Positions 8,827-36,299 of a stretch of DNA of 64,000 bases are shown here, piece after piece. Source of the DNA: Plumapathes pennacea. Its lineage: Eukaryota > Cnidaria > Anthozoa > Antipatharia > Myriopathidae. The notes beneath the pieces are model-generated. The model was not told the DNA's origin, did no database searches, and was given only the letters and a program-made list of their open reading frames with translations. The stretch is from the NCBI GenBank assembly GCA_964036295.1, contig OZ038469.1, positions 13,573,591-13,637,590 on the forward strand, written 5' to 3'. Positions within the stretch are counted from its first letter, which is position 1; each line of letters begins with the position of its first letter. The position numbers were made by a program, and so were the translations under genes.

Positions 8827-9507
8827 ATGTCGTATCAACTTGAAGTCCCATCTGATTCACGAGAATCTGCATTACCAGAACGACGCAATCTTGAGGAAAC
8901 TATGACACCACAAAGACGAGAGTTTTTGAAGCTCTTTTTACGAGAATCAAAGCTAAGGAGGGAGGTCGAAACGACGAACGACGATGAAGTGGAAAGGAGC
9001 CGTTTAAGATCGTATAGACGAATGGAGCAAGAGCTTGCGCAAAGGCGAAGGTTCTTTTTTCAGAACACTTCAAAAACGTTGGCACTACCAAAAGTTGCCT
9101 TACCACGTGCCTGCCATATACCTGACAGACGAGGTGTTGAAGAAAGGTGTCAAAGTACGATACCACCCATCCAGAGAAAGAACTCAAAGTATCAGCAGAT
9201 TAGCACTGATGGAAATTCTCGAAGAACGAGCTCCGATCCACTTCCATTATGGGAAATGGCGGTTAGTCGTCGCATCTCAAATGCGACCTTGGCCAGTCTA
9301 CCCTCTGGACACGGTCGTAGTGGATATAATCCTTGTAACCCCGTAAGGAATCGCAGAAAGTTGGAGCGAAGTCAATCGGAAAGACTGTTTCTCCATAATG
9401 CTGAAAGAGCGAAGCGGTTTTCTTCGAATGGAATCATACACGAAAAAGAGCACCATGACTGGAAGATAGCTTTACACAGAAGAATTCCCCTTGATAGATA
9501 TTTATAG
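8827..9507 (+). CDS. Small basic protein of the W-[KR]xxLH[KR]R motif family
   Basis: Single open frame of 226 residues; ATG at 8827 with an in-frame TAG about 20 bases upstream. Residues 28-80 are Arg/Glu-rich and probably helical. Leu-Pro motifs occur at 86-94 (ALPKVALPR). Ser/Arg clusters follow at 132-136 (RRTSS) and 148-151 (RRIS), close to LWEM at 141-144, which resembles LWKM before RRHS in the 16885-17718 protein. The C-terminus carries the family motif WKIALHRR (212-219), only seven residues from the end. There is no signal peptide or membrane segment. A polyadenylation signal lies 65 bases after the stop. Function unknown. Confidence 0.7.
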   Translation: MSYQLEVPSDSRESALPERRNLEETMTPQRREFLKLFLRESKLRREVETTNDDEVERSRLRSYRRMEQELAQRRRFFFQNTSKTLALPKVALPRACHIPDRRGVEERCQSTIPPIQRKNSKYQQISTDGNSRRTSSDPLPLWEMAVSRRISNATLASLPSGHGRSGYNPCNPVRNRRKLERSQSERLFLHNAERAKRFSSNGIIHEKEHHDWKIALHRRIPLDRYL

Positions 9508-9794: not shown

Positions 9795-10621
9795 AGGGTG
9801 TAGTTGTCATGAGAAAGATTGCACTAAGCCTCGTTCTGATACACAAGAGACAACGCAGTCATCTCTGAAATGGCTAACGGTGTGACGCATGTCAGCTCAC
9901 CCAGCAAATGGCAGATTGAAATGTTGCAATAGCAATTATCTACATGTCTATCACGGAAGCTGCTTCTCGGACACAATCCTCGATTTTTTTCTGAACACTT
10001 GGGGCACACTCACTGCTAGTTCTCGATCCACAAGCCTTTGAGTAACATTAACCGACTGAGGTTGCTGAAGGAAAACTCGTTTCTCGCTCCCGGTTGGACT
10101 CTTAACAAATGTCTAGACTCGTAGAACCCGTAATCCCGAATCGTAAGGTAGAGCAAATGAGCATCACTCTAGGGAAATAAGAAGGATAAACAATTAATTT
10201 TGTTCCTTGACTTGATTTCCGAAATGAATGGCACCGTTAGTCAGCTAGAAAATAATTAGCCTCACAAAATTCATGTCTCAGTCACGTCAAATAGGACAGT
10301 ATCTCAGAGTAGGGACTGTTTGCTGCCTTTTGTATAATATTCTTGTAACACGATGCTTTTTAATTCCTTTCTGACGTCACAATGATATGTAGTCTTTCAC
10401 TGGTGGAGCTTTAGACAAAACCTTCTAGAACATTGACCACTCGGTCAGTTTGCTTGTAAGGGTCGACAGTTGACAGGGTTCATCATTTCAGATCTGCCTC
10501 GGCAACTACTTTTGACTGAAGCGACCGAGACTAGTGAAGCATCGACTCGGTTCCACTAAGAACAAACTTGCGAGCACTATTTAATAGTCTTCTCCTTCCT
10601 TCTGTGCTCTGGCGGCCCAAG
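9795..10621. other. Intergenic, nothing recognised
   Basis: No repeat pair, RNA-like fold or credible gene. Just before the next gene is a pyrimidine-rich stretch (about 10583-10607) that could be a splice acceptor or promoter-proximal tract. Confidence 0.4.
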
Positions 10622-10909
10622 ATGACTAAGATAAAACAAGGAATGAAGGCAGAAAAAGGTGAACCTCGACCCGCGCGGACCGCGGGATTCTCGAGACAGT
10701 TTATGCGGCTAATTCGAGATGCACTGATACGGGGACAGCGGGTGGCATTTGTGCCCCTCGAAGAAACATCTACTAGCTTTGAAGGAAACACAACAAGTGC
10801 TGAACCAACACAACATTATGAGCTCACTCAAACGAGTGCTTCGCGGCAGGGAGAGGAACAGACGACATGGCGGATAGCAAAACATAGGCGCGAGTTTCAT
10901 GGCATTTAG
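10622..10909 (+). CDS. Short protein of the W-[KR]xxLH[KR]R motif family
   Basis: From ATG 10622 the frame gives 95 residues. The frame is open further upstream but only from non-ATG codons, so 10622 is the most likely start unless an upstream exon joins. Residues 21-44 (from AGFSRQF to VAFVP) are a basic, helix-prone segment. The end reads WRIAKHRR (83-90) followed by five residues, closely parallel to WKIALHRR in the 8827-9507 protein. It is the shortest member and lacks the Leu-Pro-Asp and RRHS modules, so it may be a minimal form or the last exon of a longer gene. Function unknown. Confidence 0.55.
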   Translation: MTKIKQGMKAEKGEPRPARTAGFSRQFMRLIRDALIRGQRVAFVPLEETSTSFEGNTTSAEPTQHYELTQTSASRQGEEQTTWRIAKHRREFHGI

Positions 10910-12567: not shown

Positions 12568-13140
12568 TCATATGAAGAGCGGTTGACTTCTCTTGTGCAG
12601 TTGTATTCTCCAGCGATATGCACGACGGCGCGTGCTAGGACGTTGTACATCCCGCCTGGGAGACATTCTCTTACAACTGTTGACACGGAAACCTTTCAAG
12701 GTAGATAAATCGACTGCGATGCTATGTCTTCTTGGTCTTGAAAGCTTTAAGAATCTTCTTTCTTCCTTTACCGGGTCGAGGGGAAAGCTGTTCACTTTAC
12801 GACACGGTGTTTTTTCTTGTATGATGGACATGCTGGAAGTAAGGTGACTTTGTTTGTTTGAGTGTACCGCAGACGGCCCGTTGCCAACAAGAGATCCGTT
12901 GTCTGATATCTCTGGCAACTTCACTACATTTTCCAGCTTAATGTCTGGGAGTGATGCTTTTCGACTTTTTTCATAGTTTTTGTCCACCACGAGGTCATTA
13001 CTGGTTGGGTTGGTAGGTACAACTGGATTATACTCCTTGACAGACAATTCCTCCGATGACTTAGAATATATTTCTGCCTGCAGCGACAGTTTCATTAGTT
13101 CTCGTCTTGTCATCCTGAAATGTTCACTTTCCGTATACAT
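12568..13140 (-). CDS. Small basic protein with SLPDI, RRHS and W-RxxLHKR motifs
   Basis: From ATG at 13140 the frame gives 190 residues, ending at TGA 12570-12568. The frame is open for 91 more codons upstream, but that part has only a TTG start and overlaps a duplicated non-coding block, so I place the start at 13140. Three modules are visible. Residues 60-67 read RKASLPDI, followed by LPEI at 75-78. Residues 137-140 read RRHS. Residues 177-184 read WRIQLHKR, six residues from the end. RKAS and RRHS fit the basophilic kinase consensus R-R-x-S. The protein is hydrophilic and probably disordered. It is the clearest full-architecture member together with the 16885-17718 gene. Confidence 0.65.
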   Translation of the reverse strand: MYTESEHFRMTRRELMKLSLQAEIYSKSSEELSVKEYNPVVPTNPTSNDLVVDKNYEKSRKASLPDIKLENVVKLPEISDNGSLVGNGPSAVHSNKQSHLTSSMSIIQEKTPCRKVNSFPLDPVKEERRFLKLSRPRRHSIAVDLSTLKGFRVNSCKRMSPRRDVQRPSTRRRAYRWRIQLHKRSQPLFI

Positions 13141-13284
13141 GAACACAGCAACTTTTTTTTTATCTGAGACACTTAAAGGATTTTTGTCGCAAGTTATTGC
13201 TTGAACGGCGCTATGTCTTTTGTTAAAAGCTCCTTGTGATTCACTACGTGACCCAGCAAACCAGGCAGGTGCTAAACGTTGACA

Positions 13285-13900
13285 ACCATTGGCCAAAGGC
13301 TTAAGCCATACAATTAGTCGAGTTACCGTAAAATTGCTTTTAAACACGAACAACTTGTATTTCTGTAGTTGAAGAGTGTTGCCTGTTTTGAGGTCACTGT
13401 TTGACTGGGTCAATGTGGCTGTTTGTTGTTGTTGTGTTTTGTTGTTGTTCTACAAGCAATATGTCTTTTTGGTCTTTTCCATGTTTGCAACTTACTGGTT
13501 CGTGCACCAACGAAGCATATATCCGGATGACTCGAAGAAAAGATTAGCATCTTTTGTTTCACTATAAAGCCACAGTGAAAAAGCTTAAATGCCAGCCATA
13601 GGCCAATGGATTTTAAGCCATACAATATTAGTCAAGTCACCGTAAAAATGCTTTTAGACACGTACGGAATGTATTTATGGTTTGTAGGGTGTGTTTTTGA
13701 GGTCACTGCTTTACTGGATCAGAGTGTGGCTGTTTGTTGTTGTTGTTGTTGTTGTTTTTACAAGCAATACTTCTTTTGATCTTTTCCATGTTTTGAACTA
13801 ACTGTTTCGTGTACTAACCATATGTATATATCCGAATGATGATGAACAAGGATTAGCTCCTTTTGATGTCACAGTTAAAAAGCTTGAATACCATGAGCTC
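13285..13900. repeat. Tandem duplication (~300 bp unit) upstream of the minus-strand gene
   Basis: The block at about 13285-13590 recurs at about 13600-13900 with an offset of 296-311 bp. Shared landmarks in order are 'aagccatacaa', 'accgtaaaa', 'gaggtcactg', a (GTT)n microsatellite, 'acaagcaata', 'ggtcttttccatg' (gatcttttccatg in copy 2) and 'aaaaagctt'. The copies have diverged. The first copy lies over the putative promoter or 5' UTR of the 12568-13140 gene. Confidence 0.75.
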
Positions 13901-15390: not shown

Positions 15391-15924
15391 TCATCTTTTG
15401 GTAGCAGCATGACACTTTGCAGCCTCTGAATGTCCATGCCTTGAGCTCTCGAGTAAGACAATCCTTCGCTTAAACAGCTTTACCCTCCAGCTGTTGACTT
15501 TCGCTACCCTTGTTGGCTTCCCCACTGATCCTTCATGGCATTGGTTTCCAGCCACGCTATGCCTTCGGCTCTGGCGCCTGCTTATTGGTATCCGCCGGGA
15601 AGCCACTGCGGAATTGACCTTTCTGCGATAAACTATATGTATGTCTGCCGAGTTGACGGAAACTCTTGAGTTTGTTGCATGCCGATCCACCAACTCCGCA
15701 GGATGGTGATCACTGCTCGTGTTCGTTGTTGGTGTTATTTTGTTTGCTTGTAGGATGCTGGACGTCAGCTGTAGACGTTGATTGACCATTGGCAATTTAA
15801 CTTTGTTGTCTCTATTTATGTTCAGTTTATAAAACCTTGACATTATTCCTCCGACTTGACCACTCTCTGATGAGCTAAGGCTGGAGGTTTTGTCGTATTC
15901 CATAAGAGGTGACAGTCTCTCCAT
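15391..15924 (-). CDS. Small basic protein with RRHS and W-RxxLFKR motifs
   Basis: Single frame of 177 residues from ATG at 15924 to TGA 15393-15391. The N-terminal 75 residues are Ser/Thr/Asn-rich. A strongly basic centre follows (100-122), ending in RRQSRRHSVAG, which matches PRRHSIAVD in the 12568-13140 protein and PRRHSFSSG in the 16885-17718 protein. The family motif is WRVKLFKR (146-153), with Phe replacing His, then a longer tail (24 residues) than in the other members. There is no SLPDI motif; KLPMV at 43-47 sits in a comparable place. No signal peptide or membrane helix. Function unknown. Confidence 0.6.
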   Translation of the reverse strand: MERLSPLMEYDKTSSLSSSESGQVGGIMSRFYKLNINRDNKVKLPMVNQRLQLTSSILQANKITPTTNTSSDHHPAELVDRHATNSRVSVNSADIHIVYRRKVNSAVASRRIPISRRQSRRHSVAGNQCHEGSVGKPTRVAKVNSWRVKLFKRRIVLLESSRHGHSEAAKCHAATKR

Positions 15925-16884
15925 GACTGCTCTATTTTAGGACTTGAGCTACAAGCAACGTTTGCTCACTTCATGTACCCAACAATAGACCATTTGTTCT
16001 GTGTGGACAATTGAGTCTTGCTCTCAACATCCCATTTTATTTCCCAATGGACAGGATGCTGTTGAAAAGTACGACGTTTGCTAATTTACACTCAATTTTA
16101 ACTAAACAAGCTTAGTGTATGTGCCCCAAGGGATTGACCTCATCACAGAGTCGAGTCACGTTCTTCAATCCAGTGCTGGATCTGTTTAAAAACCATTTTT
16201 AACTTCTGTTCATACGATATCCGTCAAAACCGCGCTGTGCCAGGGTTTGTAAACATTTAACCGTTCCAAGAACGCTGAACATTACGCAACAAGCATGACC
16301 GACTGGCACTTCTGTACTTACTTTGAAATTATGGCCATTTCCTTATATTCTGATGGAAAACAAACATGGCATATATCTTGTAAATAGCATTTTAATAAAA
16401 TGTTTACTGTACAAAAAGATTTACAAAGTGAGTGCTGTTATCTTTATCATTATAATATGCTATACATCCTTACCCAAAATACTAAGAAAACTCTTTCCAT
16501 GCACTTAATTTACAAATTACCACTTACAACAATCAGTTCCAGTTTTTCGTGGCAAACGTTGCGTAGTTTGGTTAAAAGAAAACCTACAATATCAGCTTTG
16601 TGGGACTCTGCACGGAATAACGTCAAAACTATGCTGTTATATGCCTTAGTTTGTGTCAGACATACATGGTGAGTATAAGAGTCGGCAGCTTCGGACCTTT
16701 CAATTCCAAGATTGATCAATTTCGATTTTCTCTTTTCATTTTATCACTAGAGATATATCATATGGTAAGGAGAATTTGATAATTTGTATTCTGAGCTTGG
16801 GAGTAAAAAGGTTAGGGTTTTCGCTTCCTTGAGCATATTTTATAATTAATGATTTTGGTCAGATAAACATGTCGTGAAAGCCTC
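15925..16884. other. Intergenic, one decayed MITE
   Basis: No supported gene. Small AT-rich frames near 16323-16719 lack any motif. A decayed MITE copy lies at 16720-16830. Confidence 0.4.
16720..16830 (+). mobile_element. Decayed, internally deleted copy of the TTAA MITE
   Basis: It shares 'tatcatatggtaaggagaa' and the right end 'cttgggagtaaaaaggtta' with the intact copy at 27817-28027, but the middle is missing. The left terminal repeat is not recognisable. Confidence 0.55.
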
Positions 16885-17718
16885 TTAATGTGTTTTTGTG
16901 TGAAGTTTTGGCAGTTTAATCAGAGCCCTTTTGGTTTTGATAGTGTTGTCGACGGACTTCTCGGTCCCAAAGTCATCAAAATTTCTTTTATGAATCATTG
17001 TTTTCCATTTGGCTGAGGTGTTTTCCCAGGCAATGCTATCCATCTGACAGCTGTGTCGTCTTCTTCTGTTTAAATTTTTCGTACATCCAGAAGAAAAACT
17101 GTGCCTTCGTGGTTTAAGCCATGGCCCAGAGTGCATCTTCCAAAGATCAACTGGTTTGGTTCTTTCACAACAAGGAATAGTTGTTTCGACCAAACTTTTT
17201 CTCCTTCCCTTGCGAGAACATGTGCTGAGTGTTGCCGATGCATTATCTTCTCTGACGTCTTCCTCGATAACGGGCAGGTCCTTTAAGGTATAAATTGAAC
17301 TATCAGAGCCCGAGTGTGCGATTATCGCTGGCACGTTCAGCTGGTCCAAATTTGCTACGTCAGGAAGTGAAGCTCTTCGGGACCTTGCACCTTTCAAGTT
17401 AATAGGAGCAAGATGTGTGTGACTTCTTATTACAGGTGTGCTCTCGACTGGGCGCGGAAGTACTTCCTTCGTCTCCGACAGAGGTTTCAGTTTGCGAGGG
17501 TGAATACTTCGTTTCTTGTCTTCTAAGTTTAGGTCGAACAGTTCTTCCATCACTTTCCTGTATTCACGACTCTCTTCGTTAAGGCTCATTGCTCGATCAT
17601 TGCTCAGTCCAAAAGTTTGAAACTCTAACATGGTATCTTCAAAATCTTTGTGGTAGTGTCCAGTCAGCAGATCGGCCTCCAGTTTCTCAAGTTCGAAAAC
17701 ACTCCTGAGTCTTGCCAT
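16885..17718 (-). CDS. Largest family member with SLPDV, two RRHS and W-KxxIHKR motifs
   Basis: 277 residues from ATG at 17718 to TAA 16887-16885. The N-terminal 65 residues are acidic and helix-prone. Residues 114-121 read RRASLPDV, with NVPAI at 128-132 in the spacing seen in the 12568-13140 protein. A Ser/Thr-rich acidic stretch follows, then LWKM (192-195), KPRRHS (202-207) and a second RRHS (220-223). The family motif is WKTMIHKR (238-245), followed by a 32-residue basic tail ending in IKLPKLH. A strong splice acceptor lies five bases before the ATG, so the mRNA probably has an upstream non-coding exon. Function unknown. Confidence 0.7.
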   Translation of the reverse strand: MARLRSVFELEKLEADLLTGHYHKDFEDTMLEFQTFGLSNDRAMSLNEESREYRKVMEELFDLNLEDKKRSIHPRKLKPLSETKEVLPRPVESTPVIRSHTHLAPINLKGARSRRASLPDVANLDQLNVPAIIAHSGSDSSIYTLKDLPVIEEDVREDNASATLSTCSRKGRRKSLVETTIPCCERTKPVDLWKMHSGPWLKPRRHSFSSGCTKNLNRRRRHSCQMDSIAWENTSAKWKTMIHKRNFDDFGTEKSVDNTIKTKRALIKLPKLHTKTH

Positions 17719-17723
17719 CCTTG

Positions 17724-17745
17724 CTGTGAATTAAAAGAAATAAAA
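17724..17745 (-). promoter_or_regulatory. Probable 3' splice site just before the ATG
   Basis: On the minus strand a long pyrimidine-rich tract runs into ATTCACAG, then CAAGG and the ATG of the 16885-17718 gene. The fit to an acceptor is strong by eye. It implies a 5' UTR intron, with the first exon at higher coordinates not identified. Confidence 0.55.
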
Positions 17746-21115: not shown

Positions 21116-21790
21116 TCAACTTGTCTTGTCCAAATCTGAACAATACCTACTCAACAACACTTCGATGGCCCTCTCGCTATCCTGTCTGTTAAAAGCACGA
21201 GGTTTTTTTTCGACTGAGACCGGAACACTGTAAGATATATTCTGCACTTTCGAGGAACGCTTGATCAGCTCGCGTTCGCTCTGTTCATGTTGTGCTTGTT
21301 TGCTCTTCCTCTTGGAAATGCTGACTTTCTTGGGCAGTCGAACCATAGAGCTGCAGTTGTTGTCAATTTTCGGCAGACCAGTCATCCAGTTATGAAACTC
21401 TGACTCAGTAGGGATTGACCTTCTCAATATTTTTGGCACGTTTGCTTGAGTGCACGTTATCTCTGGGAAAGTGTCGCGCCGTTTTTCAATCCGGTAGGAC
21501 TTGAGGAGTTTTTGCCTTTCTTTATCGTCGCCATATTCGGCGATGCCTCTTTGTCGACGCAGAGCTTCCATCTGCATTTGCCAAGGTTCCCTGGCATGCC
21601 TTTGTCGTTCTCTTCTCAGCTGCGACAGGTCTCTTTTAACGTTGTTTCTTTCCAGTGAATGACTTATGGCGGCTTGTAGTCGTTCTCGCTCTAGCTCTGT
21701 AGTGATAGTCTTCAACTGTTTTGAGCCCTCATGGCATATGGTCAAGATCTTGTCGTATATAGACTGCTGATTCTTTCGTGACTCTGTCAT
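21116..21790 (-). CDS. Basic coiled-coil-like protein with an RRDTFPEI motif
   Basis: 224 residues from ATG at 21790 to TGA 21118-21116. Residues 25-100 are rich in Glu, Arg, Gln and Leu and look like a charged coiled coil. Residues 104-111 read RRDTFPEI followed by NVPKI (117-121). This matches RRASLPDV...NVPAI (16885-17718) and RKASLPDI...KLPEI (12568-13140) in order and spacing. Further basic clusters (SKRKSK, 159-164) could act as nuclear localisation signals. The tryptophan motif is absent; W135 in NWMTGLPK is at best a remote version. A fair splice acceptor (cccacag) lies just upstream of the ATG. Function unknown; distant membership is inferred. Confidence 0.6.
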   Translation of the reverse strand: MTESRKNQQSIYDKILTICHEGSKQLKTITTELERERLQAAISHSLERNNVKRDLSQLRRERQRHAREPWQMQMEALRRQRGIAEYGDDKERQKLLKSYRIEKRRDTFPEITCTQANVPKILRRSIPTESEFHNWMTGLPKIDNNCSSMVRLPKKVSISKRKSKQAQHEQSERELIKRSSKVQNISYSVPVSVEKKPRAFNRQDSERAIEVLLSRYCSDLDKTS

Positions 21791-22959
21791 ACTGTCCTGT
21801 GGGATTTGAGCAGGATGGCTACTGTCGGTAGGAGAAAGGATACGGACTCCGTGCTCACTAAACCAAGCAGCTTCTGCTAAGCACTTTCACAACCGAGGGA
21901 CAATTATGCAGTGCGTGAGCCCATCTTCTCGCTCGCCTTTTTATGGCTAACTGCGCATATCCTTTGTGATAACGGTCAATTTTAATAACATTTAATAACA
22001 TTTCATTTATTTCTTTACTGGACGTATGAGTTCCTTTGTCTTCTAACACCATCATGAAGAAGCCCATGGTCGTTATATTGCTCAATCAAAGTTAAAAGAA
22101 AGCATCTGTAGGAAAAGTTCCCGAGCAAAATCCGTACGGATTTTGGTACATGTTTAAGTTTCTTGTAAATCGTGATCTCATAAATCATTAATTTTACAAA
22201 GCTTTCGGCGCCAAGTTTGTTAATTTAAGGAGGTACTTTGCAGTAATTACCCCGTTGCTCAATCATCAGCTTTTGTTCACTGACAGTCGTCACGAATGTT
22301 CATGGCCTCGTCGACACTGGACATAAATGTTGAGTTTCAGTATGAAGTCCAATGTATGACAGCGTAAGACCGTAATTTTCCCCACCAGTAACACCATAAC
22401 ATTATTGCGGTGCTTTCCTGTTTTGTTATTAATCTTCCTATTATTCTCGATATCGTCAATGCATCATTCACATTCTCCAAACAAGCAATCTTTAAATGAA
22501 AAGGAAATTCATCAAGAAGCATTGGCTAACAATCCAACTCTGTTTGAATTGACTGGCAAACTAGAATCAGATCCATTCAGAAACTAATTTCCGTTGAGGC
22601 ATGTAGGCATTTTTTTAATTACTTTCACATCAATCAATAAGTAGCGCATCTTGAAACAAAATGACAATAGAAACCTGAACAATACGTCACTACGTATAAT
22701 TCAAATCGTTTATGACTAAAAACTACTCTTAGTTATGTGGTTCGACTTCCTGTCACAGCCTTCACACACACAAGCTTTAAAAACTGCCTGAAAATGACAC
22801 GGAGACAATGGAGAAAATGGCCTTTTGGGTTATGTTTTGGGCCGTCAGCCTTTTTGGGGGGCCTAGTTCTAGCCTATTGGGCCTTAAGGGTCTCAACATT
22901 TGGCTTCATTCGAACCTACCCAAAACGAACATACATGAGAAGCCCCTCCCCCATTAGGT
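21791..22959. other. Intergenic, nothing recognised
   Basis: No supported gene. A perfect 18 bp palindrome (aaaatccgtacggatttt) lies at about 22126-22143. Confidence 0.4.
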
Positions 22960-24455
22960 TTTCGCTCTTCACGAAAAACCACTAAAAATGCAAATAAAAT
23001 CCACTGCAATACCACTGAGAAACCACTCAAAATCCACAGAAAACACGCTGAAAAACCACTGAAAATCCAAGAGAAGTCCACTGAAAAACCACTGAAAACC
23101 CACTGAAAATCCACTGAAAATCCACTGAAAACCCATTGAAAATACACTAAAAAACTACTAAAAATCCACTAAAAGTCTACTGAAGAACCACTGAAAATCC
23201 ATTGAAAAACTACTGAAAATGCACTGAAAACCTACTGAAAATCCATTCAAAACCCACTGAAAATCAACTAAAAAAACTACTGAAAAACCACTGAAAATCC
23301 ACTTAAAGACCGCTGAAAATTCACTGGAAAATTACTGAGAATCCACTGAAAATCCACTGAATATCCACTGAATATCCACTGAAAATCCACTGGAAAACCA
23401 CTGAGAATCCGCTGAAAATCAGCTGAAAATCAGCTGAAAATGCACTGAAAAGTCACTGAAAAACCACCTAAAATCCACTGAAAAACCACTGAAAATCCAC
23501 TGAAAATCCACTGAAAACTACTGAAAATTCACTGAAAAACCACTGAAAATCCACTGAAAATCTACTGTAAATCCACTGAAACTCCACTGAAAAACCACTG
23601 AAAATCCATTGAAAAACCATTGAAAATCCGCTGAAAAACCACTGAAAATCCACTGAAAGTCCACTTAAAAACCATTGAAAAACCACTGAAAAATTACTGA
23701 AAAACTACTGAAAAACCACTGAAAATCCACTGAGAATCCACTGGATAACCACTGAAAGTCTACTGAAATCCACTGAAAACACATAGAAAATCCACTGAAA
23801 AACTACTGAAAATCCACTGAAAAACCACTTTAAATCCACTGCGAAACTACTGAAAATTCACTGAAAAACCTTTGAAAATCTACTGAACATCCACTGAAAA
23901 ACTAATGAAAATCCACTGGAAATCCACTGAAAATCCACTAAAACTCCGGTAAAAAACCACTGAAAAACCACTGAAAAAAAAAACACTAAAAATTCACTTT
24001 AAGACCACCGAATATCCACTGGAAATCCACTGGAAAACCACTGAGAATCCACTGAAAATCCATTGAAAAAACTACTGAAAATCCACTGAAAATCCACCTA
24101 AAATCCACTGCGAAACCACTGAAAAACCACTGAAAATTCATTGAAAATCCACTTGAAATCCACTGAAAAACTACTGAAAAACCACTGAAAATCCACTGAA
24201 AATCCACTGGAAAACCACTGGAAACCCACTGAAAAACCACTGAAAATCTGCCGAAAAACCACTGAAAGTCCACTGAAAAGCTACTGAAAGTCCACTTTAA
24301 AACCACTGAATAACCACTGAAAATCTACTGAAAAACCACTAAAATTCCACTGAAAAAACAACTGAAAATCCACTGAAAAATTACTGAAAATCCACTAAAA
24401 AACACTGAAAATCTATTAAAAAACAACTGAAACTCTGCTTAAAATCCACTGAAAA
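22960..24455. repeat. Minisatellite, ~11-12 bp unit (CCACTGAAAAT / CCACTGAAAAAC)
   Basis: About 1.5 kb of imperfect tandem copies of a CCACTGAAAA-based unit, alternating between 11 and 12 bases. Because stops are rare in this unit, the minus strand shows apparent open frames of 72-106 residues made of FSGF/SVDF/QWIF repeats. These are composition artefacts. The repeat borders unique DNA near 24455. Confidence 0.95.
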
Positions 24456-25277: not shown

Positions 25278-25815
25278 CTGAAACCCGTGCATAATTTAAA
25301 GTAAACCGTTCAAGTTTTGCTTTGATTCTGGGAGAAACATGCTGTTTTGAGCGGGTTTACATACAAAACAATTCGAGCTCATTAAATGTGCATGCCTGAG
25401 TCTGGTGCATGGAGTCCAGAGTAAAAAAAAAATCGCACAGGAAGCCTATTTAATTGTACTGCCTCTGAATTCAAAAGTGGAAAATCAGTGTTCCTTTTTT
25501 TCCCGTACTACGGCGGCCGACCAAAATTTTAGTATTAAATTTTGAAAACGTGCTTGGCAGACTGTATGAATTAATTTGACGTGCCGACCGTGGGAAATAC
25601 ATGTACTTCGTCACGCAATCGACTCTTTTTTTTCAACGCAAAAGTATAACACACACCATTCTTTTTCTCCTTCCTTTGCGTATAGCACTTGACTTCGAAG
25701 AAAAGATTGAGTCAACATTTTGGTAAAACAAAGGCTGCTCTTGTTGAGCAGTACCAAAGTAGAAGTCTAATCAATGGCAGAGCGAGGGGTATCTGCGATT
25801 ATCGTATTTCTAGTT
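25278..25815 (+). repeat. Left arm of a ~0.54 kb inverted repeat pair
   Basis: Its reverse complement matches 31513-32053 throughout. Shared landmarks include the Gln-codon-like 'gattctgggagaaac', 'aaaacaattcgagc', 'gaagcctatttaattgtact', 'gaattaatttgacgtgccga', 'ctttgcgt' and 'atctgcgattatcgtatttc'. No ORF of note. The match stops sharply at both ends. Family unknown. Confidence 0.85.
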
Positions 25816-26898: not shown

Positions 26899-29800
26899 CT
26901 ACTGCAAACATCCACTTCTCACAAATCTGAGTCCTTTGACTGGGAGCCTGAGACCCACTTGGAAACAAGCCTGCAACCTGTTATTCTGGAATCCAAGGTC
27001 GGAGATTATGTAGCACACTTCACATCCAGCGACTTTAACATTTGTGCACCTCGTTTGATCGAACGCTGTAAAAATAAACCGCGTTTAAATATACTTTGAC
27101 GCAAATAGTAGGTTTATTCAGTCTGGTCACGTGATCCAAAACCCACCACGTGACTGAAGCTGACATTGCCTCGAGCTGGCACCGCGGAGATACGTTATTG
27201 ACGTCACTTCCGTTGGTCAGCGTTCGTCGCCATGACTATCTAACTTCTCATAATTCGAGGTAAAATCTCGTTTTTTCTTGTGCACAACTTATGTTATAGA
27301 AAATGCATTGAACGTATAGTTGAGTATCTAGTAATGCGTTTCTTGGCTAGGTCTTGAGGTTTCACGAGCGTTGCATTTAAGTACGAAATCTGCACTTGAA
27401 TCCACGGTTTTATGCAATAACCGCTGACTCAAAATCAAGGTAAGCGCACGGCCGAAAAACGGCGTATTTCCGCGGTATCCATCAAACTTTATGACTGCCA
27501 GAAATGGAAAGCGCATCCGAAATTTTACCTGCGATACTAGCTTCCATAATGTTTACCAAATAGGCCCTATGACTATATCCTGCTTTGTCCAAGTGAAGTG
27601 TCAACTCAAATTTGTGCCCGATTGAAGATTGCATTTAACCTCCTGTTAGCAAAACCCTCACAAAGAATGATAACAAAGGAAGACAAAAAAAAAATTAATA
27701 AGATTGTACAAAGAAAGAAACATAAAAGTGTCTAACCTCCAATTTCTCGTGACTCAACCGTTCTCCCGCCAAGTACAACTTCCAGCTGTATTGCCTACGT
27801 AAACAAACGCACAATATTAACCCTTTCACTCCCAAGAGTGACCAACTTAAATTTTCTCCTTCAGTTTCTCATCAGAAATAATATCATATAGTAAGGAGAA
27901 CTTGGCTTTTGATACCTTGCTCAGATGAAAGCTGACTAAACTATTAATTCTCACTACATTACTCATACATTTTATTCTCGAAAGGTTGGGAGAACCTGCA
28001 TTTTGAACTTGGGAGTGAAAGGGTTAAGCTTTAATCGTCGTAGTTAATATCGCCTGAGAAGTGGACGAAGTAATTTTAATTTATTGGCTAGAAAAGAAGA
28101 AAGATGAATAGCAATACTTACGTTCCTCCCTGGAATATTCCTGAGGTTGATGGCGACTGTTGATTAACCCAAAATATTTTTTTGTGATTCAAACAGTCAT
28201 ATTAGATAGTATTAGGCCTGTTTCAAACGTGGTGCCACTGCCGCGCCGAATTCAATACAAATTTTCTCAAACAATAGATTTTGCTTAATTGCATTGAGTT
28301 CGGCACGGCATTGGCGCGACGTTTGAAACGGGCCGCACAAAGTAGCTCAAGGCATAACCATATGGGACACTAAAAAAATGATTTTTTTTCACCATCACTC
28401 TCTGTTCGACAACGAAGCGGCTCAAGTTTTGAAGCTTAACCCTCCCCCTCCCCCATACAATTTTGCATAAAGAGGATGTACTTTGAGCACACTGATTCAA
28501 CAATGTATGGGGGAGGGGAGTGGAAACGGTCAGAGTGTCGTAATTTTCAAATAAAAGGCTAAGTGTCCCAACACTTAGCCTTTAATGTAATAATGATTTA
28601 TGTATATTTAGAGACTGACCCGCCTCGATTAGTTTATGCTACCTGCAGGTCAGTCCAAAGTTATGTATTTAATTAAGAAATATAATAAAATAAAAGTGTG
28701 TACACTTTTGACCAAGATTGTAGCCATCAATAAAATAACATGCAAATTGCACACTGGTCTTGTCAAAAGCCCCGTAATTTATCCGGATCCGAGAAATTTA
28801 TCCAGAACTATTCGGATTCGGGAAAGCCTTTACACTAGCTTTTGTTAATCCGGAGACAAAAACGAATCCGGAATCGAAAATGGAAACTTTGTATCCGAAA
28901 TAATTTTCATTTGTAAACGGGGCCTAAAATAACAAAGTGGGCAAATGTTTGGCTTTTGATACCTGTAAATCTTATGTTCTTGAATGGAAACGTAATAATT
29001 TTCCTGCATATGCATCTTCTTCTTCTACAGCGGCAGTCAGCTTGACGCACAAGCCTTTCGAACTGTACGGGCGGCCCTTCAAAGTCGCCATCATCATCGC
29101 CATTGAACAGGCCCTGTTGCTGTTGTACCTGAGCCATCGGTCGAGCCGCAAAAGCCATCGGTTGACCTATCGCCGCCTGAGCCACTGGTTGAGCCGCTGG
29201 TTGAGCTATCGCTGCCTGAGCCATCGGTTGAACCATCGCCTGATCCACTGGTTGAGCCATCGCTTGATCCACTGGTTGAACTATCGCAGCCTGAACCATC
29301 GGTCGAGCCATCACAGCCATCGGTTGAGCCATCGCCGCCTGAGCCACTGGTTGAGCCATCGTCTGATCCACTGGTTGAGCCATTGGTTGAGCCATCGCCG
29401 CCTGAGCCATCGGTTGAACCATCGCCTGATCCACTGGTTGAGCCATCGCTTGATCCACTGGTTGAACTATCGCAGCCTGAACCATCGGTCGAGCCATCAC
29501 AGCCATCGGTTGAGCCATCGCCGCCTGAGCCACTGGTTGGGCCATCGTCTGATCCACTGGTTGAGCCATTGGTTGAGCCATCGCCGCCTGAGCCATAGGT
29601 TGAACCATCGCCGCCTGAACCACTGGTTGAGCCATCGTCTGATCCACTGGTTGAGCCATCGCCGCCTGAGCCATAGGTTGAGCCATCGCCTGATCCACTG
29701 GTTGAGCCATCACCGCCTGAGCCATAGGTTGAGCCATCGCCTGAGCCACTGGTTGAGCCATCGCTGCCTGAGCCATCGGTTGAACCATCGCCTGAGCCAC

Positions 29801-30582
29801 TGGTTGAGCCATTGCTGCCTGAGCCATCGGCTGCATTTGCTGCTGTTGTTGAGGCTGCGGCCTGAATTGCCGTGGAACTACTCCAAAATAGGCAAACTAG
29901 GTTAGTACTTTATTTTACTCATTGCAAAGCCATGATTGTAAATTTACGCGTTTTATTTTTGGGTAAAGAAATCCAAGATGGCCGACGATGAATTCGGAAT
30001 AAATTACAAAATCTTAGTTAAAAGCGTCTTTATGCTTGCCTCTTCTCGGTTCGAACGCCATTTCTCTCAGTAATTGTGATTGAGCTTTTTTTAGAAGTGA
30101 CGAGAGCTCTTGAACCGGTCAGAATTGTTCGCGTCTACAGATCGCTCACTTTTACCATTTCTATTTCGCTTGTGCTCTTGTCACTTTTTGTGCCCGTGTT
30201 TCTCTGGACGGAGTACGATTGAAGTTGTTAACTAAAGGTTCCATTAAAACAATGGTGCAGCATGCAAAAATGACATGTTTTTGTATGAAACAATTTGTTA
30301 CTTACCGAAAAATTACTTACCACTCAAGGCAGGGTCCTCCCACTTGCTCGCACCAACTAGTCAATTAAAAATAATGTGAAATAATTCAAGTTTTATTAAC
30401 AAAACTGATAAATTTCTACATTACAGTGTTCTTACAAATTGTTGTGCACTAGAACAAAGATTTATTTACATGTAGCTGTTACCTTCATTCAGTTTATCAC
30501 GCGGTTCTGGAAGCATGCTTCCACTAACCAGAGCTATGACCGACAGCAGGGCGAGAATCATCTGCAGTTGCGTTTTGTCCAT
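26899..30582 (-). CDS. Gene A: secreted Gln/Ala/Met/Pro-repeat protein with C-terminal Cys-rich (DUF4773-like) domain, six exons
   Basis: Assembled by eye: exons 30582-30483, 30356-30321, 29877-28963, 28156-28122, 27785-27737, 27065-26899, giving 433 residues. All introns are GT-AG and the phases agree (1,1,1,0,1). Exon 1 is a signal peptide (MDKTQLQMILALLSVIALV, then SGS). Exon 2 adds a linker with SKWEDP. Exon 3 holds Q5, about 55 short MAQPV/MAQPM-type repeats, an acidic DDDGD patch, then DCRCRRRRCIC. Exons 4-6 finish a beta-rich, Cys-rich domain ending GLRFVRSGCLQ. Nine Cys occur after residue 326. The pattern C-x-C, GR...SRE, LGFQNNRLQACF resembles DUF4773 from memory; unverified. A matrix or mucus-like secreted protein is a guess. 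The paralogue is gene B at 33472-35998. Confidence 0.8.
27817..28027. mobile_element. Intact TTAA-flanked MITE in intron 4 of gene A
   Basis: The ends form a perfect 20 bp inverted repeat: 28008-28027 reads cttgggagtgaaagggttaa and 27817-27836 is its exact reverse complement. Both outermost tetramers are TTAA, as expected for piggyBac-type target duplication. The element is 211 bp with no coding capacity. Broken copies occur at 14180-14280 and 16720-16830. Confidence 0.85.
28215..28334. mobile_element. 120 bp foldback in intron 3 of gene A
   Basis: The left arm (ggcctgtttcaaacgt, then gccactgccgcgccgaattc) and the right arm reversed (ggcccgtttcaaacgt, then gccaatgccgtgccgaactc) match over about 42 bp. 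The centre is AT-rich. Confidence 0.75.
28554..28583. repeat. Perfect 13 bp hairpin in intron 3 of gene A
   Basis: AAAGGCTAAGTGT and ACACTTAGCCTTT are perfect inverted repeats around a four-base loop. It follows another small foldback at about 28441-28520 built of CCCTCCCCCATACA / TGTATGGGGGAGGG arms. Confidence 0.7.
29095..29830 (-). repeat. Coding tandem repeat of gene A (MAQPV/MAQPM units, with a 186 bp higher-order copy)
   Basis: Short units of mostly 15, 18 or 24 bases encode A/V-Q-P-M/V-A/D-Q-A. A longer block of 186 bases (62 codons) is duplicated almost perfectly: about 29224-29409 and 29410-29595 share the same order of VDQTM, MAVMARPM, AAIVQPVDQ. All changes keep the frame, which argues that the protein is made. 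The opposite strand is also open across this region because of the repeat composition. Confidence 0.9.
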
Positions 30583-30670
30583 GATCCTTCCCGTATGTCT
30601 CAACTCTTCCGTGAATAAATTGAACAAGGTGATCTCTGACTGAAGAAGGGCGCTGTGTCTTTCCCTGGGC

Positions 30671-30750
30671 TTGCCCTTTTATTGATTTCATTCTGCTGAA
30701 AATATGAGGGGAATGTTGAAGAAGTGTTACGTATTGGACAATAAATTTGC
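30671..30750 (-). promoter_or_regulatory. Core promoter of gene A (TATA-like and CCAAT-like elements)
   Basis: On the minus strand CAATAAAAGGGCAA (30684-30671) lies about 90 bases before the ATG, and TTGTCCAATA lies about 55 bases further upstream. The same two elements with the same order occur ahead of gene B (36085-36163) and in two decayed copies, so they are likely functional core promoter parts. The AATAAAAG serving as a TATA box is an inference. Confidence 0.5.
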
Positions 30751-31109
30751 CTCAGAGCTAAAACAACGCTGAGACGAACTAACATCGGTAAACTCGTACG
30801 ACCATTGAAGTACTTACGAAAGAAACAGAACTTGTTTCTGCAAGATCGATCCTGATAGATTTGACCACGACGCACAAAAGAAAGTTTTGCTAATCGGTTT
30901 TTCCTTTTTCATGGATTTTCCTTTCTTTGAGTAGACTAACAATAATACATTACTTAATTAACAGAAAGTACCGAGTTGTACAAACTTGTAAATGTTTAAA
31001 GTTTGATTAAGCTATAAATACTCAACAGTAGATTCATGAAATCTGACCAATTTGAATTTACGTACTAAATAATTGCTTTTACATTTTACTAACTATTATA
31101 ATTTTATCC

Positions 31110-31440
31110 TTAACACAAAATATCTGTTACCTTTATGGGGATATGTTTCGCAGCTCTGGAAGGATACTGTACTTTCACGAGTAACAGCAAGGCAGGAATC
31201 AGCTGTCTCAACCAGCTCTCGTGAATAAGTTGAGCAAGCATTTCACAGGCCTGTCCTTTTATTGGGTCCATATGCTGGAAATATGCCAGGAATGTTGAAG
31301 AAGCGTTGCGTGTTGGACAATATATTTGACTGCATGAGACTTGTGTGTCTCTTATCCGAGGCTTGTAACGTCCGTTCGGTGAAATCACGCGACCATCGAA
31401 GTACTTATAGAAGCAGCTTACTGAAACTCTCCTCATCACA
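31110..31440 (-). pseudogene. Decayed third copy of promoter plus exon 1 of the A/B family
   Basis: The minus strand repeats the A/B promoter elements (CCAATAAAAGGACAGGCC and TTGTCCAACA). It then shows a remnant of exon 1: TTGCTCAACTTATTCACG, an 'attcctgccttgctgttactc' stretch parallel to the signal peptide core, and 'aaaggtaacag' at the former donor. The ATG and the codons around it are deleted. No matching exon 2-6 set was found nearby. Confidence 0.65.
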
Positions 31441-31512
31441 AGAGAACTGACACTATATAATATAGATAAATATATTGATTATTGCCTGGGTGTTCCTATA
31501 TTTGAGTGTACT

Positions 31513-32053
31513 AACTAGAAATACGATAATCGCAGATACCCCCTCACTCTGCCATTGATGGGACTTTTACTTTGGTAACTCCCAACAAGAGTAGCCTTTG
31601 TTTTACCGAAATGTTGACTCAATCTTTTCTTCGAACTCAAGTGCTACACGCAAAGGAAGGAGAAAAGAACGGTGTGTGTTATACTTTTGCGTTGAAAACA
31701 GAATTGATTGCGTGACGAAGTACGTATTTCCCACGGTCGGCACGTCAAATTAATTCATACAGTCTGCCAAGCACGTTCTCAAAATTTAATACTCAAAGTT
31801 TGAAGTTGGTCGGCCGTCGTAGTACGGGAAAAAAGAAGCACTGATTTTCCAATTTTGAATTCATAGGCAGTACAATTAAATAGGCTTCCTGTGCGATTTG
31901 TTTTTACTCTGGATTGCATGCACCAGACTCAGGCATGCATATTTAATAGGCTCGAATTGTTTTGTATGTGAACCCACTCAAAACAGCAAGATTTCTCCCA
32001 GAATCAAAGCAAAACTTGAACAGTTTACTTCAAATTATACACGGGCTTCATAT
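31513..32053 (-). repeat. Right arm of the ~0.54 kb inverted repeat pair
   Basis: Reverse-complement partner of 25278-25815, with substitutions and small indels. The two arms enclose about 5.7 kb containing all of gene A and the decayed third promoter copy. Confidence 0.85.
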
Positions 32054-32420
32054 TTCCTCGCCAAACTTTGTTTATTGTCTATTAATGAACCATCCAATAT
32101 TTTTCGCTGGGAGATTACTGACATATACACAAACCACAAACATTACAAGAAAGAGTGTTTATTGAAACTGGAAAATATTTAGTCCTTTTCCTGAGAAGCG
32201 ATACAGTGCTGGTGTGCCACAAAAAGGTAAAAATGTCAAGACAACTCCGAGTCATATTGAAACAAAGCAACTGGACCAGAGTATTGTACAAATTAGCATA
32301 AATACAATCATGTTTTATTTATAACCAGCAGAGATGTAGCTAAAAGCGGTGAATCAGCTGATTACAAATCGACGCAACGGAAATGACCAGGGGAAATTTA
32401 GCAGAACAATTAATACTAGA

Positions 32421-32593
32421 ACATTTGCATGATGACGTAATTTGACTACAACTACCAGAATGCTTTGAGGCAAGCTATTGTCTTCAATATTTATTTCTTT
32501 TGTGCGGAATTGTTCGTGCAAGACGCAAACCTACTTTACAAAAACTGCAACGAAGTGCATTCTGGTAGTCAAGTGACGTCATCATGCAAATGT
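32421..32593. mobile_element. MITE with ~40 bp inverted ends
   Basis: The left end acatttgcatgatgacgt, then ttgacta-accagaatgc, pairs with the right end, which reads back as acatttgcatgatgacgt, then ttgactaccagaatgc. The centre is non-coding. Confidence 0.7.
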
Positions 32594-32714
32594 CCTAATA
32601 GAACACTCAAAAATATCTTGACATTAGAGCTGAAGGAATGCAAACGGCCTAAAAGATTTCAACGGTTGTGTTCTACTACAACTTTGGGTAATACAGTGGA
32701 ACCCTTTTGAGAGA

Positions 32715-33090
32715 ACACCTCTTGCAAGTGACCACCTACCTTAATTGAACAATAAACTAAAAAGATACCGATTGGTTTTTCAGTCAATTTACCATTTAGT
32801 GAAACCTCTCGTAAGCGACCACGACGACCTTTAGAGTCTTGCCGTTTAAGTTTTTCTCCTGGGGGATGGGGAGGGGAAAGGGGTACTCCTCAAAATTTTG
32901 GGTGGGTTGGGTGAAAATCGATACCCTTACTTCAGACTAAAATGCTGAAAATGATACTTTTGGGGGGGGCATATACCTATATGACTGATAAATAGGAGTA
33001 CCCCTCCTGCCCACCACAGGGGGGAGGCGGGGGGGGGGCTCTGTTGTTTTTAACTCCGGTAAGCGACCACCTGAGCACCCAAAGAGCGAT
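32715..33090. repeat. Dispersed repeat copy 2 with a G-rich insertion
   Basis: It matches 1740-1890 at both ends ('gaccacct', 'tggtttttcagtca', 'gtgaaacctctcgtaagcga'; then 'taactccggtaagcgacc'). A G-rich foldback segment of about 180 bp is inserted between about 32862 and 33045. Confidence 0.6.
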
Positions 33091-33471
33091 TTTCTAAAAA
33101 GACTAAAACTAGTAACATCCTTGTAGAAACAGACAAACGCACTTGTGTAATTCACATATAAAGTCTGACGTGCAACAAGACCCAGGGTTGATTTCTCACA
33201 ATTCAAGTTGTTATCCAGTCAAAAGAGTAAATGACACTGGTTGTGGTTCAAAACTGGATATCACTTAGGCCTTTTATGGGGAGAAGTCCTCTTAGTAATC
33301 TGAAGTACTTGTAGCAGTGACGTACTTCGTATTTATAACTGACGACCCAGCGCGCCTTTGAACCCTGTTTTCCTGTATTATTTTCCTACCCAAAAGCAAG
33401 TTACATCATTTAATCTTAAACAAATCAAGTTACTTAGGGAAGCCCAAAGAGTGTCACACATTATGCTTGGT

Positions 33472-35549
33472 CTACTGCAAACATCCACTTCTCACAAATC
33501 TGTTTCCTTTGACTGGGATCCTGAGACCCACTTCAAAGCAGGCCTGCATCCTGTTATTCTGGAATCCCATGTCGGATATTCTGTAGCACAGGCGTCCAGC
33601 TCGACCAACACGTACCCTTGTACACCTTGTTAGGTTTCCAGCTGTAAAGAGAAAAAAATACCCACACTGTAAATAAACTATATTTTTCAGCAGAACAGAA
33701 TAACATGGCAGTGGCAATATTATTCGAAAGATTGTGCTGCCAACCCCCTCCCCGCTCTCCCCCGGGAGGAGGGTACTCCCTACTTCAGACCAAAATTTGC
33801 GATTTTAGACCCTATTTCGAACCAAAGTGTGCGATTTTCAACCGTTTTCCGAACAAAATTTGCAAACTTCCGACCCTATTTCAGACCAAATATCAGAATC
33901 TCCTACCCTGTAATCATATTGGTTCATCGCCCTTAGAACATTCAGATACCCAGTTCGGACTTGCCGATAATTGGTGAATGGTTTTTAACCTCTTGACGAA
34001 TACCATTGCAAAGAACCAATTTATGGCAAGGAAAAGAAGAAAATCGTAGTACAAACAAAGAAAAATAAAAGTGTCTAACCTGGAAGCTCTCGTGAAACAA
34101 TCATTCTCCCGCCGACTGTTAATGTCAGCTGCATTGACTAAATAAAGGAGAAAAGCAAGTTATCTTGAGAAATGATCGAATGCCTTATCATTGTTTGGGC
34201 AAAGAAGGATTTCAAACGAGTAGCAATACTTACGTTCCTTTCTGGAATTTTCCTGATATCGATGACGACTGTTGATTAACCCAAAATAATTGTTTGTGAT
34301 TAAAATAGTCAAAACAATCATTAGAGGAGTTGTACAGTAGCTGAAGGCATAAATGCAAATAATGGGATAGCATGAAAATTTCACGTTGTTCACAAACAGC
34401 ACAAAAAAGGACAAATTAATTGGCTTTTTATACCTAACACCCTCAGGTTTATGATTGGAAAAGTAACTCTTTTCACGCATCTGCATCTTGTTCTTCTACA
34501 GCGGCAGTCACGTTGAAACCCGAGCCTTTCGAAACGCACTGGCTGCTCATCACCATCGTCACCGCCGCCACCAACAACACCGACACCGCCAACAACACCA
34601 ACAACACGGCCGCCGCCAACAACACCAACAACACGGCGACCGCCAGCAACACCAACAACACGACCACCGCCAGGCCGCATCCCTTGCAGCAACTGCCTTT
34701 GCTGGGCCATCGGTTGAGCCATCATAGGCTGAACCATCGCCTGAGCCAGTGCTTGAGCCATTGGCTGAGCCACCGCGGCCATTGGCTGAGCCACCGCGGC
34801 CACTGGCTGAGCCATCGCGGCCGGCTGAGCCACCAGCTGCTGAAGTAGCTGACCGTTCGCTTGAGCCATCGGCTGGGCCATCGGTTGCTGATCTACCGGT
34901 AGGACAGCCGCTGGCATAGCCGGTGCAACCGCTGCTCCTGCTGCAGCGGCCGGTTGCATTTGCTCAGGAGCTGGCAGAAACGTCTGTTGAGCCTGCGCCT
35001 GTGCCGGTACCATCGCCTGAACTGGCGGCTGAACTTGCGGCTGAATCTGTGGTTGTTGAGCTTGCGGCTGGAGCAGAGCTTGAAGCGGTTGCTGGACCAT
35101 TGCCGCCTGAACCTGCCGCCGTCGCCGTAAAACTACACCAAAATGGGCACATAAGGTCAGCAGCTATTGTCAAAACTACATGCACCTCGGGTATAAGTGC
35201 AGGTTTGGTTATATGGGAGAAGCTTTGGCTCACAGGCCATTTAATGGGAGATGAACGCTCCAGATAATGGGCTCCTGGTCATACGTATTTGATTCTATAC
35301 ATTTCACTTTTTTGAGGGGGTGGGGGTGGGGGTGGATAATACCAGTTCACACATAGGAATCAAAGAGAAGAACGCATTGCGAAAGCAGAAAACATCTAAG
35401 ATGACCGGCGAAGAACTCGAAGTAAATTACTAATTCCTAATTGTTGGTCATTCTTCTCAGTTAATTTGATTGTGATTGAGCTCACTGTCAACGCTTATGT
35501 TCACGCAAACGACCAGCCTTATGAAATTGACGAGAGATTTTTAGGTTTC

Positions 35550-35593
<44 letters not shown>

Positions 35594-35998
35594 GTAATAA
35601 TAATAATATACGATTTTTTGCAGATATCCCCTCGCCGAAGTAGCCAGGCGTAATCGTTACTTTTGACTTCTCGTCACTTTCTGTGCGATGATACACCAAA
35701 ACTGCTTGCTTTTGCGTAAAACAATTTGTTACTCACCGGCAACTCCATCACCAGTGTCCTCCCATTTGCTCGAATCATCGACTATTCATTTAAAGATAAC
35801 GCGAATTAATTAGGATTTTTACAAAAACTAATAATTTTTTTATCAAAATGTTTTTTTTTACAATTTGTCGTGCACCAAAACAAAGATGTCTCCGTCACCT
35901 TCATTCAGTTCACCACGCGGCTCTGGAAGCATGCTTCCACTAGCCAGGGTTGCAACCGACAGCAGGACAAGAATCATCTGCACTTTCATTTTGTCCAT
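33472..35998 (-). CDS. Gene B: secreted paralogue of gene A, six exons
   Basis: Assembled by eye: exons 35998-35899, 35781-35737, 35132-34434, 34268-34234, 34128-34080, 33641-33472, giving 365 residues. Exons 1, 4 and 5 have exactly the lengths of gene A (100, 35, 49) and all phases match. The signal peptide contains VQMILVLLSVATLASG; SMLPEPR follows as in A. Exon 2 again carries SKWED. Exon 3 differs: Gln/Pro/Ala-rich with AQPMAQ units, then about 40 residues of GGGRVVGVV repeats and a GGDDGDEQP patch before DCRCRRTRCRC (257-267). The C-terminal domain (LTLTVGGRMIVSREL, then ISDMGFQNNRMQACFEVGLR) resembles DUF4773 from memory and is better conserved with A than the repeats are. No broken exon seen. 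Confidence 0.8.
35551..35608. repeat. (AAT)n microsatellite upstream of exon 3 of gene B, within intron 2
   Basis: About 19 AAT units with one interruption, on the plus strand. Confidence 0.95.
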
Positions 35999-36084
35999 GC
36001 TCCTTCCCATATGTCTCAACCCTTTCATGAATACATTGAGCAAGAAGAGATCTGAAGGAAGAAGGGCGCTGTGCTTTACATGGG

Positions 36085-36163
36085 CTTGCCCTTTTATTGG
36101 TTTCATTCTATTTGAAACACGACAGGAATTTTGAAGAAGCACCACGTATTGGACAATATATTT
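36085..36163 (-). promoter_or_regulatory. Core promoter of gene B
   Basis: The minus strand has CCAATAAAAGGGCAAGCC about 90 bases before the ATG and TATATTGTCCAATACG further upstream, parallel to gene A. The region 36085-36290 is alignable to 30671-30860, so the paralogues share their proximal promoter. Confidence 0.5.
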
Positions 36164-36299
36164 GACTCAGAGCTAAGTCAGTGCTGAGACAGCTAACATC
36201 GGTAAACTCATACGACCATTGAAGTACTTACAACAGAACTTGTTTCTACAACATCCTGATAGCTTTAACCACGACGTACAGAAAAAAGAAACAGATTCC

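Follow-up and report, generated by a model that had tools for sequence, protein, structure and literature searches.

DUF4773 is a Pfam domain of unknown function without a significant sequence match among solved structures. In the excerpts of two earlier studies that mention it, a DUF4773 transcript ranks with the most abundant of those upregulated in the pleuropodia, a secreting organ of the locust embryo, with 9112 reads per kilobase per million mapped reads (RPKM) or ~601-fold over legs (PMC6966819), and a DUF4773 protein is present in octopus skin mucus (PMC11431876). Here, two tandem genes carrying this domain, A and B, are described from the black coral Plumapathes pennacea. They are located in a stretch of 64,000 bp (C8:13573591-13637590), in the following called the window, of a genome of 290 Mb in 24 contigs which was searched as a whole. 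With a probability of roughly one half, these genes are considered to encode a secreted epithelial mucus or matrix protein that would bind polyanions via a cationic domain. With the octopus, locust and oyster cases (for the latter, see below), as far as the excerpts go, A and B have in common the named domain and presumably a secretory or body-fluid context, a likeness by domain name. A search for the accession PF15998 in the open literature gave no match, and the two genes are not mentioned in those titles, abstract beginnings and passages that were covered on black coral skeleton, genomes and transcriptomes, on the amino acids of skeletons or on coral mucus proteomes.

Gene models, domain assignment and relatives in the genome

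Both genes lie on the minus strand and were assembled by script from the sequence, yielding six exons each:

30483-30582, minus strand, 100 bp: gene A exon 1 (start codon, signal-like peptide, LPEPR segment)
30321-30356, minus strand, 36 bp: gene A exon 2 (SKWED linker)
28963-29877, minus strand, 915 bp: gene A exon 3 (Q/A/M/P repeat arm, acidic patch, CxC-x4-CxC start of DUF4773)
28122-28156, minus strand, 35 bp: gene A exon 4 (length shared with the domains on contig C10, see below)
27737-27794, minus strand, 58 bp: gene A exon 5 (length shared with the C10 domains)
26899-27065, minus strand, 167 bp including the stop codon: gene A exon 6 (C-terminal half of DUF4773)
35899-35998, minus strand, 100 bp: gene B exon 1 (start codon, signal-like peptide)
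35737-35781, minus strand, 45 bp: gene B exon 2 (SKWED linker)
34434-35132, minus strand, 699 bp: gene B exon 3 (RRRR possible cleavage site, Q/A/V/G/P arm, acidic patch, DUF4773 start)
34234-34268, minus strand, 35 bp: gene B exon 4 (length shared with the C10 domains)
34080-34137, minus strand, 58 bp: gene B exon 5 (length shared with the C10 domains)
33472-33641, minus strand, 170 bp including the stop codon: gene B exon 6 (C-terminal half of DUF4773)

An earlier note on this DNA had proposed a pair of six-exon paralogues with GT-AG junctions in matching phase throughout and identical lengths of exons 1, 4 and 5, and the assembly agrees with it in all these respects. Introns are GT-AG in 10 of 10 cases, the phases after exons 1 to 5 are 1,1,1,0,1 in either gene, exons 1, 4 and 5 measure 100, 35 and 58 bp in both, and both frames are closed by a stop codon falling exactly at the end of exon 6. 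The exact closing of the frames had been foreseen as well, yet with 433 and 365 residues each protein was given three residues short, the actual lengths being 436 (A) and 368 (B). Likewise, of the small exons announced with 35 and 49 bp, the former is found as exon 4, while exon 2 measures 36 bp (A) and 45 bp (B). The description as two intact paralogues suits A and B themselves but overlooks a broken third 5' end at 31080-31490 and the DUF4773 relatives on contig C10.

The domain itself, guessed by the earlier note to be DUF4773 in the C-terminal region, was recovered by profile search in both proteins. Whole-protein scores amount to 32.7 bits for A and 41.1 bits for B at a Pfam gathering cut-off of 27 bits, while the domains alone reach 37.2 and 45.3 bits, respectively. 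The match spans residues from exons 3 to 6 and covers the profile at near full length (positions 2-112 in A and 2-111 in B, of 118). Judged by sequence, A and B are variants of the known DUF4773 family, not a new kind of system. The other Pfam match up to an expectation value (E) of 1 is DUF445 on the repeat of A, below its own cut-off. NCBIfam gave no match for whole A or the B domain, and querying the solved structures with the sequence of the B domain gave none up to E 1; two structure entries of telomerase p45, obtained at E 0.6 and 0.66 using a profile of four domains, were taken as chance. Viral contigs afforded 12 pattern matches with 0 relatives among them, and the Pfam DUF4773 model has matches in 0 of 14 control genomes.

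Searching the coral genome for DUF4773 indicated three places, one above the cut-off (C10) and two below it (C7 and C12). A second domain on C10, approximately 2 kb beyond the first, was found by searching with the C10 domain:

C10:6295095-6299152: gene C, DUF4773, 256 residues, with C-terminal KENSKKVVD-type repeats
C10:6299464-6301219: domain D, DUF4773, whose last exon closes with a further CxC-type motif, as would be expected at the start of a third domain

With 89.7 bits for C and 67.6 bits for D, the A and B scores are lower than those of the C10 domains (33 and 41 versus 90 and 68 bits). A 35-bp exon followed by a 58-bp exon with the same phase steps is present in each of the domains A, B, C and D (4 of 4, all from one genome), the entry phase of domain D having been taken from its open frame. 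Because identity to the B domain is as low as 20% for C and 28% for D, exon lengths matching to the base lend the gene models strong support. Both loci also share two CxC pairs at the domain start, whereas C carries its repeats at the C-terminus and A and B an N-terminal arm. The B domain matches five places genome-wide, all of them exons of A and B, and the peptide of B exon 1 matches only A and B. Of the 10-kb pieces flanking the C10 locus, two give profile scores of E 2.5 or worse and the third none up to E 5, so that D may be either a gene of its own or a further domain of C. The place on C7 was set aside, scoring 22.5 bits (below the cut-off) with three internal stops and one frame resembling a helicase by eye; that on C12 (21.8 bits, also below the cut-off, one internal stop, E 0.56 with the four-domain profile) was likewise set aside, as an unlikely member.

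The ratio of nonsynonymous to synonymous substitution rates (dN/dS) between A and B is 0.61 (bootstrap 95% interval 0.39-0.98; 171 aligned codons outside the repeat arm), and 1.9% of 2000 resamples reached 1, which suggests selection that is purifying, but mild. Of the exons, the first (86 of 100 bases identical) and the sixth (138 of 160 aligned) show good conservation at the DNA level. The claim that such closed frames exceed chance is borne out by DUF4773 scores above cut-off in both proteins, by the exon lengths repeated on C10 and by a dN/dS below 1. As far as can be told from the DNA, A and B are real genes, with small length errors in their earlier description.

Protein architecture and proposed function

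Of the parts previously listed for the two proteins, SKWED linker, Q/A/M/P segment and Cys-rich domain are found in the assembled sequences. By eye, the N-terminus also looks like the signal peptide of that list: the first charged residues are followed by a hydrophobic stretch, and SMLPEPR is preceded by small residues. An acidic segment containing SKWED follows the apparent signal peptide in both A and B. In B, residues 51-54 read RRRR, a possible furin-type site, which is absent from A. From residue 46 to the domain, the sequence consists of 26% Ala, 23% Gln, 13% Met and 12.5% Pro in A, and of 19% Gln, 19% Ala, 14% Val, 11% Gly and 11% Pro in B; in A the arm is made of DNA repeats of several periods, including a 186-bp unit with 88% matches. 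An acidic patch, GDDDGD or GDDGDE, lies between arm and domain. The domains of A and B are strongly basic (20 basic versus 7 acidic residues, +13, pI 10.25, and 24 versus 6, +18, pI 11.51, respectively), whereas the C10 domains are acidic (5 versus 13, pI 4.22, in C and 9 versus 13, pI 4.87, in D). Cysteines number 9 in A, 8 in B, 10 in C and 11 in D, and two that C and D possess, one at the end of CxCC and one encoded in the 35-bp exon (VC[VI]N), are both missing in A and B. Since A and B lack them jointly, this suggests that the two form one disulfide, a pairing drawn from four domains; with no outgroup among these, the change may have gone in either direction.

Based on this architecture, the putative signal peptide would cause the protein to be exported by an epithelial secretory cell. 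The brief acidic stretch near the N-terminus, which includes SKWED and in B precedes RRRR, may shield the cationic end or be clipped from it, while the Q/A/M/P arm, probably disordered, could serve as a flexible spacer. In mucus or a surface matrix, the disulfide-stabilised, strongly basic DUF4773 domain would then bind polyanions, for example the acidic glycans of mucins or the surfaces of microbes. The occurrences in octopus, locust and oyster, so far as the published excerpts describe them, fit secretion and do not prove function.

Several points weigh against such a polyanion-binding mucus or matrix protein. Polyanion binding is deduced from charge only, the RRRR motif occurs in B only, and A has nine cysteines, an odd number. 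N-glycosylation motifs are few (0 in A, 1 in B), and the arm is poor in Ser/Thr, with 4 such residues in A and 1 in B, so A and B would not themselves be mucins. In the part of the study concerned, an oyster DUF4773 gene is listed among the markers of a haemocyte cluster (PMC12064177), and an immune role is therefore equally compatible. Other points concern the gene models instead. At the DNA level, exons 2 (29/36), 4 (28/35) and 5 (40/58) show no more conservation between A and B than do the edges of the introns. Furthermore, the repeat exon (exon 3) is open in several frames on both strands, so that its openness proves little. Finally, canonical AATAAA is absent within 450 bp 3' of either stop codon, the first one following at 455 bp in gene A and at 976 bp in gene B, where ATTAAA is also present at 57 bp.

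These gene-level observations, together with the broken third 5' end adjoining the genes, would be expected if the models were partly wrong or if A and B were unexpressed remnants. This explanation is nevertheless highly improbable, given that both frames are closed with 10 of 10 introns GT-AG, the domain rebuilt across the exons exceeds the Pfam cut-off, exon lengths and phases recur in the two C10 domains, and dN/dS is below 1.

The immune connection leads to the reading of A and B as secreted defence proteins, in which the Arg- and Cys-rich domain would be antimicrobial and the acidic N-terminal part a neutralising propeptide. The net charges of +13 and +18, the RRRR after the acidic segment in B, the mild constraint (dN/dS 0.61) and the haemocyte cluster marker of the oyster (PMC12064177) are in line with it. 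On the other hand, A is devoid of the RRRR site, and antimicrobial families were found neither by Pfam in A and B nor by NCBIfam in whole A and the B domain. A long Q/A/M/P arm is, moreover, atypical of a small antimicrobial peptide, and altogether defence is regarded as rather unlikely.

Low-complexity secreted proteins are common in skeletal matrices, and A and B might accordingly be matrix proteins of the horny chitin-scleroprotein skeleton, with the arm filling the space between chitin fibres and the cationic domain anchoring the protein. Since the organism is a black coral, any skeleton here would be chitin and scleroprotein, not mineral. Excerpts describe black coral endoskeletons as chitinous (PMC10216261) and the skeleton as chitin with protein, including a halogen-containing scleroprotein and compounds of the 3,4-dihydroxyphenylalanine (DOPA) type (PMC7344944). 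After the signal peptide, A and B each contain one Tyr and no His by composition; such mature proteins would not be rich in DOPA or halogenated Tyr, the link to tyrosine being inferred, and a bulk skeletal role is disfavoured for this reason. In addition, no chitin-binding family was found in A and B by Pfam up to E 1, which leaves skeletal matrix proteins an unlikely alternative. Of the settings named in the earlier note, extracellular matrix or mucus is plausible, in keeping with octopus mucus and the locust secretory organ in the excerpts cited above, whereas the skeletal type is less likely.

The content of stinging-cell capsules is polyanionic, and in a cnidarian host a basic Cys-rich end could pair with this filling, which would make A and B capsule or glue components. 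A signal-like peptide, a short pro-segment and a basic Cys-rich end would fit, but neither minicollagen nor any other capsule domain was found by Pfam, and such a role appears quite improbable. The secreted mucus or matrix protein remains the favoured reading.

Upstream regions and genomic surroundings

The similarity of A and B extends beyond their start codons, and the following elements were located by alignment:

30583-30884, minus strand: gene A upstream region with CAATAAAAGG box (blastn, alignment with the B upstream region)
35999-36288, minus strand: gene B upstream region with the same CAATAAAAGG box (blastn, alignment with the A upstream region)
31080-31490, minus strand: relic T, a third copy of promoter and exon 1 between A and B (three-way alignment)

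In blastn, 30265-30884 and 35697-36288 are 77.5% identical over 627 columns comprising exons 1-2, intron 1 and upstream DNA, and the approximately 300 bp upstream of the start codons share 247 identities in 313 columns. Relic T has kept the box and the exon-1 donor but lacks the start codon together with some of the region for the signal peptide (blastn of 30668-30752 versus 31248-31331, 81%). Its presence between A and B implies more than one duplication in the cluster. Whether relic T still acts as an upstream promoter of A is a matter of speculation; it may or may not. An inverted pair of ~540 bp with 91% identity (25279-25815 and 31513-32050), perhaps copies of a mobile element, flanks gene A and relic T.

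Elsewhere in the window, six intronless-looking open frames in two orientations carry a W[KR]xxx[HF][KR]R motif near the C-terminus:

2912-3475, plus strand: W[KR]xxx[HF][KR]R frame
8809-9507, plus strand: W[KR]xxx[HF][KR]R frame
10538-10909, plus strand: W[KR]xxx[HF][KR]R frame
12568-13449, minus strand: W[KR]xxx[HF][KR]R frame
15391-15936, minus strand: W[KR]xxx[HF][KR]R frame
16885-17730, minus strand: W[KR]xxx[HF][KR]R frame

The motif occurs 6 times in positions 1-40000 versus 0 times in each of 20 base shuffles, a control which is not independent as the motif was drawn from the same frames. None of the six has a Pfam match up to E 0.1, and possibly they represent an undescribed clustered family; a seventh frame (21116-21886, minus strand) is without the motif. 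A minisatellite at 22973-24455 consists of 11-bp units in ~134 copies of strand-skewed composition, and the long open frames across it resemble artefacts of the repeat. From 40127 to 63971, nearly to the end of the window, a satellite array comprises ~71 copies of a 334-bp unit with 97% matches, four of which hold an identical or near-identical 105-residue open frame.

Contig C24 (17,711 bp) harbours the thirteen usual animal mitochondrial protein genes when read with translation code 4; cox1 was named by family search and the genes otherwise by eye from their translations. In the direction of transcription, the gene order is nad5 (5' part), nad1, nad3, nad5 (3' part), tRNA (anticodon tca), nad2, rns, cob, tRNA-Met, rnl, cox3, cox1, nad4L, cox2, nad4, nad6, atp8 and atp6, the nad5 intron holding only nad1 and nad3. 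According to excerpts of a published comparison, the neighbour of rns is cox2 in sea anemones, whereas in the black coral Chrysopathes formosa it is cob (PMC6890759), and C24 is like the latter. This speaks against a sea anemone, and the content of the nad5 intron against a stony coral; by gene order alone, a zoantharian would also be compatible. The cox1 intron of C24 contains a LAGLIDADG endonuclease frame (L009 5186-5938, minus strand; 48 bits at a cut-off of 23.1), in contrast to two Myriopathes specimens (Myriopathes ulex and Myriopathes cf. ulex), which are without an embedded endonuclease gene in the portion of the report concerned (PMC12129002).

Meaning for the DUF4773 family

A further, tentative possibility is that the black coral branch of DUF4773 represents a charge-reversed polyanion-binding module: an acidic ten-Cys type would have lost one disulfide, gained a strongly basic surface and been joined to a Q/A/M/P spacer whose repeats expand, and the product would be an adhesive or a cross-linker of mucus with two ends. 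Variants of opposite charge within one genome, a missing Cys pair and kept exon lengths offer handles on Cys pairing, ligands and the site of secretion of this domain. Beyond this family, a hand-assembled gene with a 35-bp exon can gain support from the conservation of exon lengths in distant relatives.

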